The notes under the pieces were generated by a model. That model was not told where the DNA came from. It did not search any database and was given only the letters and a program-made list of their open reading frames with translations. A DNA stretch of 35,444 bases from Chloroflexota bacterium (GTDB taxonomy: Bacteria > Chloroflexota > Dormibacteria > CF-121), in assembly GCA_005881715.1 (NCBI GenBank), contig VBEE01000063.1:1-35444 (forward strand), read 5' to 3'. Below are positions 640 through 34,883 of the stretch, one piece after another; position 1 is the first letter of the stretch; each line of letters starts with the position of its first letter. Position numbers and translations under genes: made by a program.

Positions 640-3347
640 GCGGCAGCTCCTTGCGTTTTACTCTGACCAAGCAGCTGGCGAACCGCATTGGTCAGGCCCT
701 CCGGTTCGATCGATCCCTTCGCCACGAATCGTTGAATGTGACCATTCAGCGTCAGCACGTCTTCCGCGGTCAGCTCTTTTGCGCTGACGATCATCACCGG
801 GATGTTGGTCGCTGCCGGCAGGGCCCGCATCCGCGCCACCATCTCGAAGCCACTCATCCCGGGCATCATCAAGTCGAGCAGCACGAGATCGGGCGGTGAT
901 TGGGTGACCAGAGCCATCGCCTCATCACCGCTCGCCGCAGGAACGACGGTGGCGTGCTCCTCTTTGAGGATCTTGGTCAGCATGGCGCGGGCCTCGGGAT
1001 CATCGTCGACGACCAGCACCCGCTTGCCATCGAGCTGGGGCAGCAGCCGGTGGATCTTGGCGATCAAGGCGCCGCGGTCGTAGGGCTTGCCCAGGTAGTC
1101 GGACGCGCCGAGCGCAAAGACCAGCCGCTGATCCTCCACGATGGTGACCACCAGCACCGGGATGCCCGCCGTCTCCGGATCTTCCTTCAACTTCTCGAGC
1201 ACCCACCAGCCGGAGGCGTCCGGCATCATGATGTCCAGCGTGATCAACATCGGCCGGCTTTCACGCGCCAGTTGCAATGCATCGGTGGCGTTGGAGGCTT
1301 GCACCGTCTTCCAGCCCTCCTGTTCCAGGTGCCGGGAAATCAGCTGCCGGACGCTCGGGTCGTCGTCCACCACCAGGATCGCGGTGCCCGGCAGGCCCTG
1401 ATTGGGACGGCGGAGCGGCCGGCGCTGAAGCGAGGTCACGGCGCCCTGGCCGGTGGCCCAGGCTGGCACGGTGAAGGTGAAGATACTGCCCTTGCCTGGT
1501 TCGCTGCTGACCGTGATCGCGCCACCGTGCATCTCGACCAGCTTGCGGACGATGCTCAGGCCCAGCCCGGTGCCGCCGTGCCGTCGGGTGCTGCTCCCGT
1601 CTCCCTGGACGAACTCTTCGAAGATCACCCGCTGCGAATCAGCCGAGATCCCGATGCCGGTGTCCTTGACGGCGATCCGGACCATGCGGCCCGATGGCTG
1701 AGCGATGACTTCGATGTGACCGCGCTCCGTGAATTTGACGGCGTTGGACAGCAGGTTGATCAGGACCTGCTTGAGGCGGGCGGCATCGCCCTCGACCGCC
1801 GGCAAGCCGGGCGCGAATCGGGTTTCGATGCGAAGCCCCTTTTCCTGGGCGAGCGGGCTGATGCTCTCCAGGATCGACGTGATCAGCCCCGGCAGCTCGA
1901 CGCGCTCCAGCGTCAGCTCCATCTTGCCGGCCTCGATCTTGCTCAGATCGAGAATCTGGTTGATCAGCGCGAGGAGCGACTGTCCGCTCTTGTTCACTTG
2001 CAAAATATCCTGCTGCTGTTCCTCGCTCATTTGCCCGTCGATCCCGTCGAGAAGGATCTGCGAGAAGCCGATGATGGCGGACAGCGGGGTGCGGAGCTCG
2101 TGCGAGACGTTGGCCAGGAACTCCGACTTCAGCTTGTTGGCTCGGGCAAGTTCCTGGTTGGCTGCCTGCAGTTCGGACGTTCGTTGGGAGACCTTGTCCT
2201 CGAGCGTCAGATAGGCGCCACTGAGCTGGCGGACCATCTGATTGAACGTGTGCGCTAGCGCCCGCAACTCCTTGGCGGCGAAGCGCTCGCGAACCGTGAC
2301 CGGCGTGACGAAATCACCCTGGGCGATGCGGCCCGCGGCACGGGTCAGCTCGTCCACCGGCCGGGTGATCCAGGCGGCCGCCAGGAAGCCCAACACCAGG
2401 GCCAGGACGATCGCTACCAGCAGCCACTCGACGGTACTCACGATCAACGGCGTCAACTCCGTTCGCAGCTCGGCAACAGGCTGCGAGACCCAGACCTTCC
2501 ATGCGACCACTGGCACCGTGGCATACCCGGCGGCTCGCGGGACGTTGCCATCGAGGTCGGTGTACCAACTGACGCCGGTTTCCTGCCCGAGCGACTGCTG
2601 AAAGATCGCGGAGGACGATAGGTCTTTTGCCTCCACTCGCCAGTCCTCGCGGGGATGAGCGATGACGCGACCGCGTCGGTCGACCACGACAGCCTGGCCG
2701 GATGCACCAATCCGGCTGTAGTTGGACAGGCGCTGGACTTCGGAGAGGTCCACCGTTCCAGCGAGAAACCCGATGAGGTTGCGCTGGGCGTCGAGGATTG
2801 GAACCGCGATCACGACGGCGGCGACGCTGGCGTCGCCGCGAGAACGAATCACGTCCGAGTATTTGGGTCCGATTCGCCGGGTGTTGAGCACGTCTTTGAC
2901 GTAGTTCCAGACGCTGTAATCGACCCCGACGCCGGCTGGCGGCGCCGCGGCCACCGCACGCCCGGCCAGGTTGCCGACGTAGAGCTGCAGCATCGCCGGC
3001 TGAGCAGAGTGCGCGGCGGCGAGCTCCTGGTTCAGGTGCGTCGCGTTGAAGCCGGCGTCGTTCAGGCGGGCGATACTGGAGTCGTTATCCGACGCGATTT
3101 GCGAAGCTGTGCTCTGCAAGGCCGAGGTCTGATCCAGGAGATAGCCATAGATCGCCTGGGCGAGACTTTCCGCCATGGGCTCGTGCTTCTGCTGGATGCT
3201 CTCGTTCTGGGTGCCGAACAGCGCGGAGAGGCGCTGGGCGCCAAAGAAGATCAGGGGGCCGACCCCGACCATCAGGAAACCGACACTGATATACCAGCGC
3301 AGGCTGTGGATCGAGGCGCGGCCGCCATTGGTCGAAGGCGAGCCCAC
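636..3347 (-). CDS. Membrane hybrid sensor histidine kinase with Cache-like sensor, HAMP and two receiver domains
   Basis: A 903-residue sensor kinase. It has a transmembrane helix at about 17-37, an extracellular double-Cache-like sensor at about 50-300 (ending in the dCache-type PVVAWKVWVSQP), a second helix at about 301-328, HAMP at about 329-380 and a coiled coil. The HisKA domain carries phospho-acceptor His416 (NVSHELRTP), and the HATPase has N box NLLSNAVKF, DTGIGIS and GGTGLGLS. Two receiver domains follow, with Asp705 and Asp825. Both receivers keep an acidic DDD pocket; the first has Lys in GKPY, the second in AKGS. The start is GTG at 3347, with no in-frame ATG that keeps the first helix. 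It should autophosphorylate and relay to its own receivers and probably to the coupled receiver protein. The ligand cannot be told from sequence. Confidence 0.95.
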   Translation of the reverse strand: MGSPSTNGGRASIHSLRWYISVGFLMVGVGPLIFFGAQRLSALFGTQNESIQQKHEPMAESLAQAIYGYLLDQTSALQSTASQIASDNDSSIARLNDAGFNATHLNQELAAAHSAQPAMLQLYVGNLAGRAVAAAPPAGVGVDYSVWNYVKDVLNTRRIGPKYSDVIRSRGDASVAAVVIAVPILDAQRNLIGFLAGTVDLSEVQRLSNYSRIGASGQAVVVDRRGRVIAHPREDWRVEAKDLSSSAIFQQSLGQETGVSWYTDLDGNVPRAAGYATVPVVAWKVWVSQPVAELRTELTPLIVSTVEWLLVAIVLALVLGFLAAAWITRPVDELTRAAGRIAQGDFVTPVTVRERFAAKELRALAHTFNQMVRQLSGAYLTLEDKVSQRTSELQAANQELARANKLKSEFLANVSHELRTPLSAIIGFSQILLDGIDGQMSEEQQQDILQVNKSGQSLLALINQILDLSKIEAGKMELTLERVELPGLITSILESISPLAQEKGLRIETRFAPGLPAVEGDAARLKQVLINLLSNAVKFTERGHIEVIAQPSGRMVRIAVKDTGIGISADSQRVIFEEFVQGDGSSTRRHGGTGLGLSIVRKLVEMHGGAITVSSEPGKGSIFTFTVPAWATGQGAVTSLQRRPLRRPNQGLPGTAILVVDDDPSVRQLISRHLEQEGWKTVQASNATDALQLARESRPMLITLDIMMPDASGWWVLEKLKEDPETAGIPVLVVTIVEDQRLVFALGASDYLGKPYDRGALIAKIHRLLPQLDGKRVLVVDDDPEARAMLTKILKEEHATVVPAASGDEAMALVTQSPPDLVLLDLMMPGMSGFEMVARMRALPAATNIPVMIVSAKELTAEDVLTLNGHIQRFVAKGSIEPEGLTNAVRQLLGQSKTQGAAA

Positions 3348-24739: not shown

Positions 24740-26206
24740 TCAGGCCTCCTGCACGTCGACGATGATGGTCTTCAGATCCGTCATCTGCTCGATCGCCCGG
24801 TGGCCGCCCACCCGGCCGATCCCGCTCTCCTTGCCCGCGCGGCCGCCGAAGGGGATGTGCGCCTCCCAGTAGTTGGATGACTCGTTCACGTTGACCCAGC
24901 CGGTCTCGAGCCGCTGGGCGAAGCGCAGCGCGCGATCGATATCCCGGGTGTAGACGGAGCCCAGCAGGCCGTAGGGTGAGTCATTCGCGATGGCAAGGGC
25001 GTCCGTCTCGTCAGCGAACGGAATCAAGGGAGCGATCGGGCCAAACGTCTCCTCGCGGCTGACCCGCATCGCCGGCGACACGTTGCGCAGCACCGTGGCT
25101 TCGTAATAAAGGCGGGTTGGATATCCATCGGCCCGCCGCCCGCCCTGGACCACGGTCGCGCCGCGGTCGACCGCGTCTCGCACATGCTCGTCCATCTTCT
25201 GGGCGACGCCTTCGTTGTTGAGCGGACCCATCGTGGTGCCGTCGTCGAACGGATCGCCCAGCCTGATCGTGGTCATTGCCGCCGTCAGTCGCGCCAGGAA
25301 CGCGTCCTGAATCCCGCGCTGAACCAGGATGCGCTCCCCAGCCGTGCAACTCTGCCCGGCGCACAGGAAGCAGCCGGTGATCGTTCCTTCCGCGGCCCGG
25401 CCGAGGTCCGCATCATCGAAGATCACGATGGGGCCGTTGCCGCCCAGCTCCAGCATCACATGCTTGCCGGCAGCCCGCCGGGCGACCGATCGGCCGGTTT
25501 CGGTCGAGCCGACGAAGCCCACGCCGGCGACCAGCGGATGGCCGGCGATCTCATCGCCCACCACCGAGCCGGGGCCTGTGACCAGATTCAGGGCGCCCGC
25601 CGGGAGGTCCGCCTCCGTCAGGCACTCCATCAACTTCACGCTGATGGCCGACGTCGAGGTGGCCGGTGCCCAGACCACGCTATTGCCACCGGCGAGTGCC
25701 GGGGCGATGAGCTCCGTGGCCATCGTCAGCGGCCAGTTCCAGGGGGTGATCACACCGTACACGCCGCGGGGAACCCTCAGCGTAAACACGAGCTTGTTGC
25801 GCGCCATCGACGGGATGACATTGGTCTCCAGTCGTTTGATGTCTTCGGCGGCGATCCGGAAATACTCGACGGCTTCCCCGACTTCTCCCAGCGCTTCCGC
25901 CTTGTACGGCTTCCCCTGATCGAGGCTCAGCCATCGGGCCAGCTCCTCGCGCCGCCGGTCCATGACGTCGGCCACCCGGTGCAGCAGGGCCGCCCGCTCG
26001 AAGGCGCCGAGCCCGGCCATGGCCGCCCGCCCCCGATGCGCCGCCTCGACGGCGAGCGCCGCATCAGCCCGGGTGCCTTTCGGCAGCGTGGCGATCACCT
26101 CGCCGGTCGCGGGGCTTACCGCTTCGAAGGTGGCCTGGCTCTCGGAGTCGACCCAGCGGCCACCCACGAACATCTTCAGCGCCGGGGTTTTTTCGACAAC
26201 CTTCAT
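24740..26206 (-). CDS. NAD(P)-dependent aldehyde dehydrogenase
   Basis: 488 residues, full length. It has Asn157 (TPWNWP), general base Glu253 (LELGGNGP), nucleophile Cys287 (GQSCTAGER), and the ETFGP and PFGG motifs. It oxidises an aldehyde to an acid with NAD(P). The strand that usually reads VVxKPA before the cofactor helix is VVWAPATST, so the Lys that contacts the adenosine ribose is Ala here; this changes cofactor binding but is compatible with the fold. It overlaps the FAD-GcvT gene by 4 nt (ATGA). In this operon a product aldehyde of demethylation (betaine aldehyde, formaldehyde or similar) is the likely substrate. Confidence 0.94.
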   Translation of the reverse strand: MKVVEKTPALKMFVGGRWVDSESQATFEAVSPATGEVIATLPKGTRADAALAVEAAHRGRAAMAGLGAFERAALLHRVADVMDRRREELARWLSLDQGKPYKAEALGEVGEAVEYFRIAAEDIKRLETNVIPSMARNKLVFTLRVPRGVYGVITPWNWPLTMATELIAPALAGGNSVVWAPATSTSAISVKLMECLTEADLPAGALNLVTGPGSVVGDEIAGHPLVAGVGFVGSTETGRSVARRAAGKHVMLELGGNGPIVIFDDADLGRAAEGTITGCFLCAGQSCTAGERILVQRGIQDAFLARLTAAMTTIRLGDPFDDGTTMGPLNNEGVAQKMDEHVRDAVDRGATVVQGGRRADGYPTRLYYEATVLRNVSPAMRVSREETFGPIAPLIPFADETDALAIANDSPYGLLGSVYTRDIDRALRFAQRLETGWVNVNESSNYWEAHIPFGGRAGKESGIGRVGGHRAIEQMTDLKTIIVDVQEA

Positions 26207-28797
26207 CGTGCTCCTCCCGAGCCTGCCAGCACCGGCAGCTCTTTGAGCCTTGTCATCTGCGCGTCGTACAACGGCTCCTTGACGACGCTGGCCGGGTAGC
26301 GCCGGCCGAAGTACTGGACCTCGACGCTCGACCCCTCCTCGGCGCCGTCCAGTGGCAGGTAACCATAGATGATGCTCTTTCCCACCGTGTAACCGAAATT
26401 CGCGCTGGTCACGTAACCAAGCACGCCTCCACCGTGTCCTCCCCCAGCGGGGGAGGGTGACTGGAAGATTGGTTCTTTTCCGAGCACCGCGACCGCCGGG
26501 TCATCGAACGTCATGCATGCCAGCTTCCGAGTGATGCCCTGTTCCTTGATCCGCAGCAGCGCGTCACGACCGATGAAGGCGCCTTTGTTGAGACGGACGG
26601 CAAAGCCCAGGCCTGCCTCATAGGGGTTGTGCTCGCTGTGGATGTCGGCGCCCCATAACCGATATCCCTTCTCCAGCCGGAGCGAGTCGAAGGCCCCACC
26701 CCCGAGCGCTGCCACCCCGAGCGCCTCACCCGCCTTCCACAGGATGTCCCAGAGACGCAACCCGTATTCCGTCGGCGTATAGAGCTCCCAGCCCAGCTCA
26801 CCGACATATGAAATCCGAATCGCATAGGTGGGAACGCTGCCAATCGTTAGCGAGCGGGCGGTGAGATAGGGAAACGCCGCGTTCGAAACGTCCTCCTGGC
26901 TCAACGGCTGCACGAGATCGCGTGCCCGGGGGCCCCAGACGCCGATGCAGCACCAGCCCGAGGTCAGGTCTTTCAGGTGGACACTGGAATCGTCGGGCAG
27001 GTGGCGACGCATCCAGGCGAGGTCGTGCATCCCAACGCCGCCCCCGGTGACGACCCAGAACCGGTCGTCGTCCACGCGGGTGACTGTCAGGTCGGTCATG
27101 ATGCCGCCGCGCTCGTTGAGCATCGCGGTGTACGTCACCTTGCCGGCCGGGTGGTCCATCTGGTTTGCCGCCATCCGCTGCAGATAGGTAAGCGCCCCCG
27201 GCCCCGACACCTCGATCTTCTTAAAGGGCGTCGCGTCGAAGAGCACGACGCGCTCGCGCGCCGCTCGATGCTCGGCAGCCTGGATCGGTGACCAGAACCG
27301 GGCCGCCCATTCGGAACGGCCTGGGATAGCCCTCGCCGAATCTCCCTCCCCCCTTGTGGGGAAGTTCGGTACGAAATCTCCCTCCCCCCTTGTGGGGGAG
27401 GGTCGGGGTGGGGGGCTATTGCCCTCATACCACTGGGGCCGCTCCCAGCCTGCCCCCTCGAGGAACATCGCGCCCAGCGCCTGCTCCCGCTCGTAAAAGG
27501 GCGTCAGGCGGAGTTTGCGCGGCGTTTCCATCGGCTGCAACGGGTGGATGATGTCGTACACCTCGCGATAGTTCTGGGCTCCACGGGCGCGCAGATACGA
27601 GCGGGTGAACGCATGTGGGTAGAACCGGTTGAGATCTTCTTCGCGAAGGTCGAGATCCGGGACACCCTCCACCATCAACTCGGCCACGGCGCGGGCCGCC
27701 CCCACGCCGTGGGTGATCCAGACGGCCTCGCAAGCCCAGAAGCCGCGCACATCGAGCGACTCGCCGATCAGGGAATGCCCGTCCGGCGTGAACGAGAACA
27801 TGCCGTTGATCTTCTCCACCAGCTCCGCCGACTCGAGCGGGGGGTAGAGCTCCGACGCATAAGCCATCGAGGGGGCGAAGAGGTCGTCGCGGAACGGCGC
27901 GCAGGACGGCATCAGGCCGTCGTCCCAGCTCGAGCGAAGCTCCTGAGGATCAACCAGGACGGGTTCGTGCCGGTAAGCACCGATCACGTAGCGGCGGTAA
28001 TCCTGGCGGAAATACATCGAGTGATCCTGATGGCGAACGATGGGCATGGATTGCCAGCCGGTCTCGCCCGACAGCTCGGGCAGGGGATCGGTGATGCCGA
28101 CCAGGTGCTGCAGTGGCTGAAGGGGGATTGGCACGCCGGCCATGCGGCCGATGACCGGGCCCCAGATGCCGGCGGCGCTGAGGACGTGCTCCGTTACGAT
28201 GCGGCCCCGATCCGTCTCCACGGCGGTGACGCGCCCCTGCTTGACGTCGATGCCGGTCAGGCGCGTGCGGGCAAGAAATCGAGCTCCCGCCTCCTCAGCC
28301 ACACGGGCCAGGGCTTCCGATGCCTGGACCGCCCTCACGGTCCCATCGCTCGGTACATGAATCGCGCCGTGCAGGTGATCGGTGCGCATGATCGGCACCA
28401 GGCGGCTGATTTCATCGGGGCCGATCAGACGGGTCTTGAGCCCCCAGGAGGTCGCGTGGCCATGCTTGCGTTTGAGCTCCTCCCACCGTTCCGGAGTTGC
28501 GGCCACCTCGAGGCTGCCCACCTCCCAGTAGACGGGCTCGCCGTCGAGCTGGAGGTTGCGGTAGGTCTCCACCGTGTCGATCGCGAACCGGCAGGTGGTG
28601 CGCGCGACATTGTTCTGAAACACCAGCCCCGGCGCGTGCGAGGTCGAACCCCCCGCGCGGAACAGCGGTCCCTGGTCGATCACGACGACATCGCGCCAGC
28701 CGAGCCGGGTGAGGTGATAGGCCGCGCTACAGCCGACGATCCCGGCGCCGATGATGACCACCCGGGCCTGGTCCGGCAGGCGTTCAGACCCGGGCAT
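26203..28797 (-). CDS. FAD oxidase - GcvT fusion (dimethylglycine/sarcosine dehydrogenase type) carrying in-frame repeat insertions
   Basis: The track's first 95 residues are antisense filler; ATG 28797 gives 864 residues. N-terminal DAO domain (about 10-380): FAD fold GAGIVGCSAAYHL and His54 in GGSTSHAPGL, the position of covalent FAD attachment in dimethylglycine dehydrogenase. C-terminal GcvT/aminomethyltransferase domains (about 480-864, with YVGELGWELYTP and SLRLEKGYRLWGAD) take the methyl group to tetrahydrofolate. Two low-complexity stretches are not family sequence: SPPPRPSPTRGEGD plus PTRGEGD in the linker, and SPSPAGGGHGGG near the C-terminus, both coded by palindromic repeats. The gene overlaps mttB-like by 14 nt and aldehyde dehydrogenase by 4 nt. 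Substrate is a guess. Confidence 0.9.
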   Translation of the reverse strand: MPGSERLPDQARVVIIGAGIVGCSAAYHLTRLGWRDVVVIDQGPLFRAGGSTSHAPGLVFQNNVARTTCRFAIDTVETYRNLQLDGEPVYWEVGSLEVAATPERWEELKRKHGHATSWGLKTRLIGPDEISRLVPIMRTDHLHGAIHVPSDGTVRAVQASEALARVAEEAGARFLARTRLTGIDVKQGRVTAVETDRGRIVTEHVLSAAGIWGPVIGRMAGVPIPLQPLQHLVGITDPLPELSGETGWQSMPIVRHQDHSMYFRQDYRRYVIGAYRHEPVLVDPQELRSSWDDGLMPSCAPFRDDLFAPSMAYASELYPPLESAELVEKINGMFSFTPDGHSLIGESLDVRGFWACEAVWITHGVGAARAVAELMVEGVPDLDLREEDLNRFYPHAFTRSYLRARGAQNYREVYDIIHPLQPMETPRKLRLTPFYEREQALGAMFLEGAGWERPQWYEGNSPPPRPSPTRGEGDFVPNFPTRGEGDSARAIPGRSEWAARFWSPIQAAEHRAARERVVLFDATPFKKIEVSGPGALTYLQRMAANQMDHPAGKVTYTAMLNERGGIMTDLTVTRVDDDRFWVVTGGGVGMHDLAWMRRHLPDDSSVHLKDLTSGWCCIGVWGPRARDLVQPLSQEDVSNAAFPYLTARSLTIGSVPTYAIRISYVGELGWELYTPTEYGLRLWDILWKAGEALGVAALGGGAFDSLRLEKGYRLWGADIHSEHNPYEAGLGFAVRLNKGAFIGRDALLRIKEQGITRKLACMTFDDPAVAVLGKEPIFQSPSPAGGGHGGGVLGYVTSANFGYTVGKSIIYGYLPLDGAEEGSSVEVQYFGRRYPASVVKEPLYDAQMTRLKELPVLAGSGGAR
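26425..26460 (-). repeat. Palindromic GC-rich repeat element, third copy, inverted, in frame
   Basis: The core CCTCCCCC AGC GGGGGAGG (26438-26456) is an 8-bp stem with a 3-nt loop. Flanks on the minus strand follow the same pattern as the copies at 27339-27410, so it is the same family in opposite orientation. It encodes SPSPAGGGHGGG within the FAD-GcvT protein. Confidence 0.75.
27339..27410 (+). repeat. Two tandem copies of a 36-bp palindromic GC-rich element, in frame
   Basis: AATCTCCCTCCCCCCTTGTG begins at 27339 and again at 27375, exactly 36 bp (12 codons) apart; 23 bases are identical in both. The second copy forms a 9-bp stem CCCTCCCCC / GGGGGAGGG (27380-27388 / 27394-27402). It codes for the Pro-rich PTRGEGD repeats of the enzyme linker. 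Confidence 0.85.
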
Positions 28798-30238
28798 GCA
28801 GGATGGCGTCCTTGCGGACCTCGATGAACGCCTGGAGCTGTTCATCCACCCCCGAATCGATGCCGGGGTCGGCGTAGTCCTTGAGCAGCTGCTTCCATTT
28901 CTCATTCGCCACCCGATCGGCGGTCCGCGAGCCGTTCCGCTGCCAGCGGTCGAAGTTCTCGGTGGAGGAGATCCAGGGTCGGTAGAAGCCGGTCCGGTAG
29001 TGCCGCATGGTGTGCTCGGAGCCGAGATGATGCCCACCCGGGCCGACCTCGCGGATGCCGTCCATGGCGAACCCTTCGTCATCGAAGGGGATGCCCCGAC
29101 TCAGGATCCACTCGAACATCCGGAGCGCCTCAACATCGATGATGAATTTTTCGTACGAGGCCAGTAGCGCGGATTCCAGCCAGCCGGCTGCGTGCAGGAC
29201 AAAGTGCACGCCGCCGAGTACCGTCGGCCACATGCACATCAGCGATTCGTAGGCCGCCTGCGCGTCCGGGCCCTTCGACGAGGTCAGCGCCCCTCCGCCC
29301 CGGAATGGCAGCTTGTAATGCCTGGCCATCTGGGCGCTGGCCAGGATGCCCATCGCTGACTCCGGGGTGCCGAAGGCAGGACTGCCGGACTGCATGTCGA
29401 TGTTCGTCAGGAACGACCCGTAGATGCACGGTGCTCCGGCGCGGACGAGCTGGATGAGCGCGATGCCGGCCAGCGCCTCGGCGGTTTGCTGGGCCAGGGT
29501 GCCGGCCAGGCCCATGGGCGACATCGCGCCGGCCATCAGAAATGGGGTCGCGATCACGGGCTGATTGGCGGCCGCGTACTCGAGCAGAGCGCCGAGCATC
29601 CGGTCGTCATATCGCAGCGGACTGTTGACATTGACCAGGGCGAGCAGGGCGGGCGTCTTCTCGATGTTCTCCCGGCCGCCGAACAGGATCGACGACATCT
29701 CGATGGAGTCGCGCGCGCCCTCCTCTGAGATGACGCTGCCCATGTAGGGCATGTCGGTCCAGCGGATGTGCGAGTAGACCATGTCCAGGTGGCGGGTTTC
29801 CAGCGGAAGATCCTCCGGTTCGACGATGGTGCCGCCGGCACAGTGGATCTGCGGCGTCGCCTGCGCCATCTTGTCGAAGTTCGTGAAGTCCTCGATGGTG
29901 GCGCCCCGCCGGCCGCGATCCAGGTCGGTGATGAAGGGCGGGCCGTAGACGGGCGCGTTGACCATGTGGTTGCCGCCGATGACGACTGAATTTTTCGGGT
30001 TCCGCGCCTGCACCTCGAAGGTCGCCGGGACTTTCCTGATCTGTTCCTCGATGAAGGCGCGTTCGAAGCGAACCCGATTCTCTTCGATCTTCAATCCGGC
30101 GCCCCGGAAGAGGTCGAGGGCTCTGGGGTGCAAGAAGTCGACGCCGATCTCCTGCAGGATCAGCATGGCGTGGTCGTCGATCTGCTGAACCTGCTCGGCA
30201 GAGAGGATGTCGTACGGCTTGAGCGTGTTGGTCCACAT
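28784..30238 (-). CDS. MttB-superfamily (trimethylamine/betaine-type) methyltransferase without pyrrolysine
   Basis: 484 residues from ATG 30238; the track's 31 residues upstream are inside the alcohol dehydrogenase gene. The TIM-barrel pattern of the family is seen (IGVDFLHPRALDLF, GGTIVEPEDLPLETRH, FGTPESAMG, PGGHHLGSEHTMRHYRTGFY). Archaeal MttB demethylates trimethylamine using an in-frame amber codon for pyrrolysine; this frame has none, so it belongs to the non-pyrrolysine group that includes glycine betaine and other quaternary-amine methyltransferases. Those pass the methyl group to a corrinoid protein, which is not in the window. It starts 4 nt after the alcohol dehydrogenase stop and overlaps the FAD-GcvT start by 14 nt. 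Confidence 0.92.
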   Translation of the reverse strand: MWTNTLKPYDILSAEQVQQIDDHAMLILQEIGVDFLHPRALDLFRGAGLKIEENRVRFERAFIEEQIRKVPATFEVQARNPKNSVVIGGNHMVNAPVYGPPFITDLDRGRRGATIEDFTNFDKMAQATPQIHCAGGTIVEPEDLPLETRHLDMVYSHIRWTDMPYMGSVISEEGARDSIEMSSILFGGRENIEKTPALLALVNVNSPLRYDDRMLGALLEYAAANQPVIATPFLMAGAMSPMGLAGTLAQQTAEALAGIALIQLVRAGAPCIYGSFLTNIDMQSGSPAFGTPESAMGILASAQMARHYKLPFRGGGALTSSKGPDAQAAYESLMCMWPTVLGGVHFVLHAAGWLESALLASYEKFIIDVEALRMFEWILSRGIPFDDEGFAMDGIREVGPGGHHLGSEHTMRHYRTGFYRPWISSTENFDRWQRNGSRTADRVANEKWKQLLKDYADPGIDSGVDEQLQAFIEVRKDAILHARV

Positions 30239-31537: not shown

Positions 31538-32458
31538 TCAAGGGCCCGCACCTCGCGCCTCCCGCAACCAGGCTGCAACGCGATCCGACTCCATGACCGT
31601 AAGCGCCCGATTCCATCGCGTCGTGTAGTAGTCAGTGAAATCGAAATCCAGCGTCGAGATCTTGGCCTGGATGGCTCCCCAGAGCGTCCAGCCGACGTCG
31701 GACATGAGGGCAAAGAGGTTCATCCGGGCGAGTTGCTGCCGGTCCAGCCGGCCAAAGTACGCCTCGCACAGGACCGCTCGCAACTCATCGTCGAGGCTCG
31801 CCTCCTGCGCCGTGTTGCCCAGGTCGAAGCACGCATCATTGTTCCCGCTGAGCTCGTAATCGACGATCCGCAAGCACTGCCCGTCGTCGATGAAGTTCTC
31901 GCAGAGCAGGTCATTGTGACAGGACACGTTGGGGAGCGCCCCAACCCGGACCGCCCGCTCGATTTCCGCCAGCAGGGGCAGCCGCTGCCGGTAATCGGCG
32001 GGGATCCGGACCTGGTGCTCCTCGACGATCTGGAGGTAGGCCTCGATCAGCCGGAACATGTCGAACGCCTTCAGGAAGGGAGACGCGGCGTGCAGGCGCT
32101 TGAACGACTCGGCCATTCGCCGCACCATCCGCTCCGACTGCAGGGTCTCGGCCGACATCGTCGGACCGGGGATGAACTCGAGAACCATGACGTCAAGCTG
32201 CGGGACATGCTCCAGAACGGCCGGTCCGATGCCGGTGCTGGCCGCCGCCCTGGCGTTATAGACCTCATTGACCCGGTCGATCGACAGCAATTCCGTCGAC
32301 GTCCCGGGGATCCGCATCACGTACCGCTCGCGGCCGGCTTCGACCAGGTAGTTCTCGTTGGTCAACCCGCCCGACAGCGGAGAGATCTTGACGTCCTTGC
32401 CTCGCCACAGCGAGACGCGTCCGGCCGCGGCCTCAGCTCGCGACAGGCTTTGCGTCAT
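31538..32458 (-). CDS. Choline/ethanolamine kinase-like phosphotransferase (APH fold)
   Basis: 306 residues. N-lobe LSGGLTNENYLVEAG...YVMRIPG matches the LicA/choline-kinase glycine loop and Lys/Arg strand. The C-lobe catalytic site is SCHNDLLCENF (catalytic Asp in HND) and metal-binding Asp in IVDYELSGNND, with CFDLGN after it. It would phosphorylate a small amino alcohol such as choline or ethanolamine, or an aminoglycoside-like molecule; the NDACFDLGN form favours the choline-kinase group. ATG 32458 overlaps the FAD-GcvT gene upstream by 26 nt. In this operon a quaternary or amino alcohol substrate makes sense, but it is an inference. Confidence 0.88.
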   Translation of the reverse strand: MTQSLSRAEAAAGRVSLWRGKDVKISPLSGGLTNENYLVEAGRERYVMRIPGTSTELLSIDRVNEVYNARAAASTGIGPAVLEHVPQLDVMVLEFIPGPTMSAETLQSERMVRRMAESFKRLHAASPFLKAFDMFRLIEAYLQIVEEHQVRIPADYRQRLPLLAEIERAVRVGALPNVSCHNDLLCENFIDDGQCLRIVDYELSGNNDACFDLGNTAQEASLDDELRAVLCEAYFGRLDRQQLARMNLFALMSDVGWTLWGAIQAKISTLDFDFTDYYTTRWNRALTVMESDRVAAWLREARGAGP

Positions 32459-34883
32459 GGCCGACCAGTTGCTCGCGCTTCAGCACGGCGTCAGTGCTGA
32501 CCTCGGCCGGCACGCGCCGGCCGAATAACTCCACCTCGACCTGCGCTCCGGGCCCCAGTCCGACCGGCAGATAGCTGTATGCGATGTTGCGCCGGACGGT
32601 GAATCCATACGCGCAGCTGCGGACCCGGCCGACGATCGAACCATCGGCATAGACCGCCTCTCCGCCATAGATGGTCGCGTACTCGTGGTCGCCGACCAGC
32701 AGGGTGCGCAAACGCCGCGTGATGCCAGCAGCCTTCGCCGCCAGGAGCGCCTCCCGTCCATTGAATTCGCCCTTGTCGAACCGGACGCAGAACCCGAGCC
32801 CGGCCTCCAGCGGATTGTCGAGGAGGGTGAGGTCGGAGCCGTAGTACCGGTAACCCTTCTCCATCCGAAGCGAGTCCAGCGCTCGGTAGCCACCCGGCCG
32901 AATGCCAAACGTTTCCCCGGCGGCCATCAAGCGATCCCACACCTGCACCGCGACGCGGGGATCGAGATAGAACTCCCACCCCAGCTCGCCGACGTAGGTC
33001 ACGCGCTGGGCGAAGACAGCGAATCCCGCGATCCGGATGTCGCGTGCCTGCATGAACGGGAAACCTCCCTCCGACACGTCGTCGTCGGTGACGCCCTCCA
33101 GCACCGCACGGGCATGCGGGCCCCAGATTCCGACGACGCATAGATCCTCCGTTGTCTCGCGCAAATCAACCCGCCCATCCTCCTCGCGTTGCTCCAGGCG
33201 CAGCCACCCCAGGTCGCTGTTCACATATCCGGCACCGGTGATCAGCCTGAAGCGATGCGGGCCGAGCCGGGTGATCGTGACGTCCCCCGCGATTCCGCCG
33301 CGGCGGTCGAGCAGCTGGGTGTAGACGACACTCCCAACCGGCCTGGCGATCAGGTTGCCCGTGACACGTTCGAGCAGCGGGAGCGCGCCCGGACCGTCTA
33401 GCTCGACCTTCCCGAACGATGTCATGTCGATGATCCCGACCCGTTCGCGGAACGCGCGATGCTCCTCTGCCTGCAGCTCGAACCATGGCGGACGGGTCCA
33501 GCCGAAGCGCCGCTGGTCTGCGCCTGCCCGCCGCCAGGGCCTGTCCGGCTCGAAGTGCTCGGGCCGTTCCCAGCCATGTTTTTGTCCGAAGACCGCGCCC
33601 AGGTCCTGGACCCGGTGGTGCAGGGCGCTCGTCCGGCGCGGCCGGCCCCACTCGTCGGCGTCGTACGGATAGCGGAGGAAGTAGTAATAGCGGTACGCCT
33701 CTCTCGCCAGCTCGGCCACATAACGATGGTCGCGATGGACCGGGCCGAAGCGCCAGGGCCGGTAGGCATAGAGGTCGAGCTCGCTGTCTCCCGCGGTGAT
33801 CAGCTCAGCCAGCGATTTCCCGATTCCGCCGGCGCCGCCAAACCCGTTCAACGACAGCCCGGCCGCCATGAAGAGCCCACGTACGCCCGGCACCGGACCC
33901 AGCAGGGGATTCGCGTCGGGGGTCATGGCGTCCGGATGACAGACGAGCTTCACGATCCCGGCCTCGCTGATGAAGGGAAACCGCCGCGCCGCCCCCGCGA
34001 GCAGGGGCTCGAACCGATGCTGGTCAGGCGGCAGAGAAGTTCCGGCGTGCTCCCAGGGAACGCCGTCGATCCATCGCGCGTTTGGGTCCAGCTCGTAGCC
34101 GCCCAGCACCACGCCGCCCGCCTCGGCCTTCCCATAGATGAGGTTGTCTGGGTCGCGGAAGCAGGGCATCTCTGGCGGCAGCTCGGCGCCCTCGACCGCC
34201 TGCAGCGCGGCGTGCTGGTGATCGACCGGGGTGGAGACGACGAATGCTCCGGCCATCGCCGCCACCTGCGGGGCCCAGATGCCACATGCGATCACCACCA
34301 CCTCGGCCTCGATCCGCCCGGTCTCCGTCCGGACCGCCCGGACGGCGCCGGCCGAGGACAGCTCGATCCCGGTCACCCGCGTCCCGGTCAGCACCTTGAC
34401 TCCGAGGTCGCGGGCGGCCTTCGCCAGGGCGAAGGTGGCCGTATGCGGATCGATGGCCCCGTCCCCCGGCACCCAGACCGCACCAAACAACGAGTCTTTA
34501 CTGATCGCCGGCATCAGCCGCGCGGCTTGCTCAGGCGAAACGACTTCGACGTCGAGCCCTATCGCTCGGGCGCGGCTCACGCCACGCTGCTGCTCCAACA
34601 GTTGCTCGCGACTGGAGGCAAAGCGAAGGCTACCGACGGTCTCAAAGATGCCCAGCCGGCGATAGAGCTCGATGCTGTAACGACGGAACCGCATCATGGT
34701 GGGTGAGGGGTTGAACTGGGTGACCAGCCCGGCCGCATGACAGGTCGAGCCGCTGGTCAGCTCGGCTTTCTCCAGCAGCACCGTATCTCGCCAGCCGGCC
34801 TGCGCCAGATGGTAGGCGACGCTGGTGCCGGTAATTCCGCCGCCGATCACGATGGCGCGCGCACGGCTCGGTAGTTGAGTCAT
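32433..34883 (-). CDS. FAD oxidase - GcvT fusion, second paralogue (dimethylglycine/sarcosine dehydrogenase type)
   Basis: 816 residues. DAO domain (about 8-380): FAD motif IGGGITGTSVAYHL and His49 in SGSTCHAAGLVTQF, closer than its paralogue to the covalent-FAD motif of dimethylglycine dehydrogenase. An FAO_M-like linker follows, then GcvT domains (about 430-816) with YVGELGWEFYLDP, SLRMEKGYRYYGSD and the C-terminal barrel. It oxidatively removes an N-methyl group and loads the one-carbon unit on tetrahydrofolate; without folate it would release formaldehyde. It lacks the Pro-rich repeat insertions seen in the paralogue at 26203-28797. It lies 32 nt after the permease gene and overlaps the kinase gene. 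Confidence 0.93.
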   Translation of the reverse strand: MTQLPSRARAIVIGGGITGTSVAYHLAQAGWRDTVLLEKAELTSGSTCHAAGLVTQFNPSPTMMRFRRYSIELYRRLGIFETVGSLRFASSREQLLEQQRGVSRARAIGLDVEVVSPEQAARLMPAISKDSLFGAVWVPGDGAIDPHTATFALAKAARDLGVKVLTGTRVTGIELSSAGAVRAVRTETGRIEAEVVVIACGIWAPQVAAMAGAFVVSTPVDHQHAALQAVEGAELPPEMPCFRDPDNLIYGKAEAGGVVLGGYELDPNARWIDGVPWEHAGTSLPPDQHRFEPLLAGAARRFPFISEAGIVKLVCHPDAMTPDANPLLGPVPGVRGLFMAAGLSLNGFGGAGGIGKSLAELITAGDSELDLYAYRPWRFGPVHRDHRYVAELAREAYRYYYFLRYPYDADEWGRPRRTSALHHRVQDLGAVFGQKHGWERPEHFEPDRPWRRAGADQRRFGWTRPPWFELQAEEHRAFRERVGIIDMTSFGKVELDGPGALPLLERVTGNLIARPVGSVVYTQLLDRRGGIAGDVTITRLGPHRFRLITGAGYVNSDLGWLRLEQREEDGRVDLRETTEDLCVVGIWGPHARAVLEGVTDDDVSEGGFPFMQARDIRIAGFAVFAQRVTYVGELGWEFYLDPRVAVQVWDRLMAAGETFGIRPGGYRALDSLRMEKGYRYYGSDLTLLDNPLEAGLGFCVRFDKGEFNGREALLAAKAAGITRRLRTLLVGDHEYATIYGGEAVYADGSIVGRVRSCAYGFTVRRNIAYSYLPVGLGPGAQVEVELFGRRVPAEVSTDAVLKREQLVGHDAKPVAS

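Follow-up and report, generated by a model that had tools for sequence, protein, structure and literature searches.

The window, that is, the whole stretch of 35,444 nucleotides analysed here, carries a gene coding for an FAD-dependent oxidoreductase fused to GcvT domains (FAD-GcvT; Table 1). The mechanical open reading frame of this gene covers 26203-29082 of the minus strand, and comparison with homologues suggests that translation probably starts at 28797 instead of 29082. The mechanical frame is longer at its 5' end by about 95 codons (window 28798-29082). The FAD-GcvT gene is under purifying selection, with a dN/dS of 0.13 against the relatives G002 and G014. Using a repeat finder, we identified within this gene a 26-nt direct repeat, AATCTCCCTCCCCCCTTGTGGGG(A/G)AG, at 27339-27364 and 27375-27400, with a spacing of 36 bp and 25 of 26 positions identical. 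Both units keep the FAD-GcvT reading frame and encode the peptides PPPRPSPTRGEGDF and FPTRGEGDS. The repeat pair lies in the linker at approximately residues 461-492, between the oxidase and FAO_M domains (12-431) and the bulk of GCV_T, and the Pfam envelope of GCV_T spans the insertion.

Table 1. Position and anatomy of the host gene, the element copies and related features.
Feature	Position	Strand	Description
FAD-GcvT host gene	26206..28797	-	FAD-dependent oxidoreductase (DAO + FAO_M) fused to GCV_T + GCV_T_C; 864 aa, probable start
Pfam domains of FAD-GcvT (864 aa)	residues 12-374, 377-431, 434-733, 757-845		DAO, FAO_M, GCV_T and GCV_T_C, respectively
Complete element	27373..27417	+	Profile match E=3.3e-16, the best of the genome
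Leader of complete element			TCT
Pyrimidine arm	27380-27388
Loop			CTTGT
Purine arm	27394-27402
Spacer			TCG
Third G-rich arm	27406-27414
Truncated tandem unit	27338..27362	+	Left arm, loop and start of right arm; profile positions 3-27, E=1.4e-5
Third, divergent copy	26425..26460	-	Opposite orientation; 3-nt loop; encodes SPSPAGGGHGGG in a GCV_T_C loop
Paralogue of host gene	32433..34883	-	No element
CysS (outside the window)	L011:1460-1545		Two near-identical tandem units, 39 nt = 13 codons, between catalytic and DALR domains

The two units of the pair differ in completeness. A perfect 9-bp stem and the third G-rich arm are found in the second unit only, and the first unit ends after 26 nt and retains just a 4-bp stem. 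By chance, a shuffled window would contain 0.08 such hairpins. The complete copy (L004) keeps 9/9 of the base triads described below, and its DNA hairpin has a folding energy of -11.5 kcal/mol (z -2.3). The third copy falls below the profile threshold used and was identified from its hairpin, its anatomy and its position. In the AlphaFold model of FAD-GcvT (mean pLDDT 83), internal pLDDT values drop below 50 at residues 465-492 and 785-788 only, and these two segments are the two insertion sites. A first-pass annotation of this DNA had described two equal 36-bp units, each with a 9-bp stem. The tandem pair set 36 bp apart stands, but the units are unequal, and 36 bp is the tandem spacing and not the length of the element, which is about 38-39 bp. 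Both copies noted at that time were recovered; the divergent third one had been overlooked. The same annotation was right in placing the element in frame between the oxidase and GcvT halves, as ORF reading and Pfam agree, and in noting that the paralogue has no such sequence.

In the 72-bp feature, a truncated and a full copy of a non-coding DNA repeat stand side by side; this repeat is dispersed and was recently active. We found 25 occurrences of its 23-nt core, allowing up to 3 mismatches, in the 2.42-Mb draft genome (89% complete), and the reversed pattern used as a control gave zero matches. A sequence profile retrieved many further copies from the source genome, in accordance with the first-pass expectation: 73 at E<=6e-4 and 91 at E<=0.1. 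The element is laid out as TCTCCCTCCCCC-CTTGY-GGGGGAGGG-TCG-GGGTGGGGGG, and the consensus of 24 copies is TCTCCCTCCCCCCTTGYGGGGGAGGGTCGGGGTGGGGGG. Searches of Rfam returned sub-threshold matches only and thus no known RNA family.

The anatomy of the element goes beyond a hairpin. A third G-rich arm is a mirror image of the purine arm in which T stands opposite A, and at least 8 of 9 class II triads (C-G-G, T-A-T) are kept in 18 of the 24 copies. As read from the sequence, the three arms (C-rich, complementary G-rich and mirror G-rich) would in principle allow several folds, namely a hairpin, an intrastrand triplex and, from the four G runs, a G-quadruplex. The closest comparison for the element is the family of intrastrand-triplex and G4-hairpin motifs, which is a better one than REP/RAYT. 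The TM_ECO/PIT motif, CCCTCNCCC N3-6 GGGNGAGGG N3 GGGNGAGGG (Holder et al., 2015; PMC4666352), shares with our element a 9-nt C-rich arm, a loop of 3-6 nt, a complementary 9-nt G-rich arm, a spacer of 2-4 nt and a third mirror arm. Both are multicopy and unstable between close strains, and for neither has an association with a transposase been reported. In E. coli, TM_ECO is reported to be always intergenic, to have no association with mobile elements and to be tied to local instability, and the same authors detected no in vivo footprint (PMC4666352). In contrast, the element described here is found in Chloroflexota and not in Proteobacteria, has many in-frame genic copies (about 15 events) and a consensus open in all six frames. 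Its third arm reads GGGTGGGGG and departs from the exact TM_ECO consensus by one base; the likeness is one of layout and is not claimed as common descent. A related G4-hairpin-duplex switch is attributed to Kaplan et al. (2016) in PMC8044849. The recurrent PQS repeats of archaea also place G-rich runs beside a C-rich tract, with hairpin, triplex or quadruplex folds possible, but there the C tract is on the 3' side and the copies are reported as all intergenic (PMC8044849).

All 18 genomes of the source family carry the motif, with 7-116 copies each. Within the class it also occurs in several genomes of a second family, and it is absent from the two other families. Among the 301 Chloroflexota genomes, 32 carry it. 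Elsewhere, high copy numbers were seen mainly in G239 and G294, from another Chloroflexota family, with approximately 40-60 copies and their own loop, AGC. Loops vary by lineage: CTTGY, GCTTGC and TCT in the source genome (G000), TCGAC/TTGAC in G016, and GCTTGC/GCTCGC in G011. The element pattern is matched exactly in five IMG/VR contigs (L252-L256), which may hold it in host flanks or as viral copies. Among named records, the closest are Chloroflexi MAGs whose depth-labelled sample names suggest an origin in soil.

The first-pass annotation had likened the unit to elements that invade coding regions. This description applies to about 15 independent events with coding signal on both sides, and not to most of the 73 copies, which lie at gene edges or between genes; these calls come from a simple codon model trained on the sequence around the copies, and some of the weaker matches may be chance. 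According to translation and Pfam, the hosts of in-frame elements include FAD-GcvT (at two sites), IolB, IspE, DUF1015, ArgG, CarB, AroA, a pyridine-nucleotide-disulphide oxidoreductase, a CPBP protease and a fusion of a luciferase-like monooxygenase to UbiA (LLM-UbiA). In AcpS-NnrD the element occupies the linker joining the two domains, in AroE it sits just ahead of the NAD domain, in TilS it lies between the two substrate domains, and CysS holds a tandem pair (Table 1). The tolerated genic copies are found mostly in interdomain linkers or loops. Their presence in several species makes assembly artefacts an unlikely source of the genic copies. Eleven of the 15 genic events are on the coding strand, a bias that is weak by itself (P=0.06). 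Ten of the 15 use one of the six frames, which yields a linker-like PSP...GEGRGGG peptide (P=2.2e-5 for that named frame); the favoured frame was picked post hoc, and multiplying P by six still gives about 1e-4. The CTTGT, CTTGC, GCTTGC and TCT forms of the element are stop-free in all six frames, and TM_ECO-like sequences composed for illustration, with TGAGGG in the third arm, contain at least one stop codon. This openness is necessary but not remarkable, because about 20% of the 42-mers of the window are equally stop-free. We propose that insertions would be roughly random, and that selection at the protein level would remove all but those that are stop-free, frame-preserving and linker-like, the outcome in the host protein being a near-neutral added linker. 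The frame, AlphaFold and dN/dS data fit a selection that retains only linker-like, frame-preserving insertions.

Alignment of homologues, proposed in the first-pass annotation as a way to find the insertion boundary, revealed element-free alleles in close relatives. Site 1 of FAD-GcvT is filled in G000, G002 and G008 and empty in G014, G011, G015 and G017. The truncated tandem unit is limited to the source species (G000), as G002 and G008 have a single unit at the same site. Site 2 is filled in G000 alone, where the gene exceeds that of the empty relatives by 27 nt, and G002 has a different 18-nt excess. CysS follows the pattern of site 1, its relatives having one unit or none and the second unit being found in G000 only. 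Element-free relatives also exist for IspE, CPBP, DUF1015 and IolB, and the intergenic copies vary between species as the genic ones do. No target-site duplication is visible at L019 compared with G011, the one clean empty site. By alignment count, the net gain at filled sites is often smaller than the element (approximately 5-16 codons, commonly 9), and therefore part of the host linker was seemingly lost or replaced at insertion. Simple transposition does not predict such a loss.

The same places have been hit repeatedly. In another species of the genus (G012), a 44%-identical FAD-GcvT paralogue (L033) carries independent elements at both of the same protein positions, with other loop types and, at site 1, in the opposite orientation. 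The LLM-UbiA linker contains differing element remnants in G000, G008, G011 and G003. These linkers are permissive, or preferred, places of insertion. The LLM-UbiA fusion itself is genus-wide (L263:329-2488; L297-L301). We considered the element as the maker of this fusion and rejected the idea, since all five relatives have the fused gene and in two of them, G014 and G002, no clear element lies there. In aroE (L023, L225-L228), the element lies at about one position in 5/5 species compared, with the loops CTTGC, CTTGT, CACCC and GCTCGC, a variety that may stem either from repeated insertion or from gene conversion between copies.

Altogether, the whole is best explained by a dispersed repeat of triplex anatomy whose in-frame copies would be near-neutral linkers spared by selection; we give this reading a probability of about 0.78. 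The peptide could in turn be regarded as a Pro/Gly-rich linker shaped by selection on the protein, with the DNA palindrome as a by-product. Its location in linkers and loops and its flexible composition would agree with such an origin, but the same DNA is found for the most part outside genes, its copies take both orientations and several frames, and the reversed-pattern control gave zero. The intergenic copies rule this reading out, and we regard it as having practically no chance of being correct. Conservation of the Pro-rich peptide in distant homologues, named in the first-pass annotation as evidence against an inserted element, was not found; the element is absent from them. A similar scrutiny applies to the REP/RAYT system also proposed there, that is, a true REP or REPIN mobilised by a RAYT (Y1 tyrosine transposase), with genic copies like those of the GTAG and CGTC REPs (Di Nocera et al., 2013). 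The two are alike in size, in being palindromic, in forming tandem pairs and in having genic copies in repair and metabolic genes. However, the Y1_Tnp domain (PF01797) was matched neither in the source genome nor in the 34 genomes that bear the element, among 61 searched, and the only three genomes with matches (G018, G021 and G060) are all without the element. A chance loss of RAYT shared by the carriers is not credible, because 18 family genomes are at 75-95% completeness. Moreover, no GTAG or CGTC tag lies by the palindrome (consensus TCTCCCTCC...GGGGGG), and a third G-rich arm is present in addition, a feature that descriptions of REPs and RPEs do not include. A RAYT-driven origin is accordingly very improbable.

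For the dispersed triplex-anatomy repeat, the copies would most likely be made by some other factor, or by template switching during replication or repair at the folded structure. One candidate is a MITE-like element mobilised in trans by a non-Y1 transposase. Sister species do differ in presence or absence at many sites, and subfamilies are defined by loop type, but the clean empty site L019 lacks a target-site duplication, the net gain is often smaller than the element, and the motif anatomy recurs in distant phyla; we consider this route somewhat less likely than not. Alternatively, no dedicated enzyme would be needed if copies arose through template switching in replication or repair, or through gene conversion, at a stalled triplex, G4 or hairpin. 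The tandem partial units in the window gene, cysS, iolB and aroE, the replacement-like net lengths and the published instability at TM motifs (PMC4666352) speak for this route, but copying to unlinked sites by such means is without direct evidence; we consider its chances to be not far short of even. An extended version, in which a transposase-free repeat spreads by template switching at its own triplex or quadruplex and acts as a recurrent linker donor, independently filling the same interdomain positions across paralogues and species, appears rather unlikely.

In-frame palindromic insertion is already known as a kind of event, with the RPEs and the intragenic GTAG/CGTC REPs (PMC3733652) as precedents. 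The likening to RPEs made in the first-pass annotation was apt: the genome holds many copies, some of them in-frame insertions in conserved genes, and sister species have element-free orthologues. As with RPEs, the host proteins are presumably working ones; in Rickettsia, the product of an RPE-bearing gmk is translated and active (PMC2229807). Unlike the first-described RPEs, which are 105-146 bp long with long stems and were found in 19 genes in the first report (PMC2229807), our element measures about 38 bp, has a different sequence and resides in a soil lineage. Shorter RPE-4 and RPE-6 elements exist, and the distinction from these is made by description and not by alignment. The GTAG/CGTC REPs and RAYT/REPINs are likewise palindromes of 20-40 bp with tandem pairs, mostly intergenic near gene ends and some intragenic (PMC3733652), but our element differs in having no tag, no Y1 transposase and an extra third arm. 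In our searches of the open-licence literature, we found no report of in-frame insertion for the triplex-motif class or for the source lineage.

With our results, in-frame invasion of the RPE type, for which Rickettsia is the best-known case, reaches a Chloroflexota lineage from soil where RAYT was not found. Until now, work on triplex and G4-hairpin repeats has treated them as oddities of intergenic DNA, with no known means of spread. A genus with abundant, species-polymorphic repeats inside essential enzymes offers natural experiments: empty and filled alleles can be used to infer the mechanism of insertion, and the cost of the linker can be measured by comparing enzymes that have it with enzymes that lack it.
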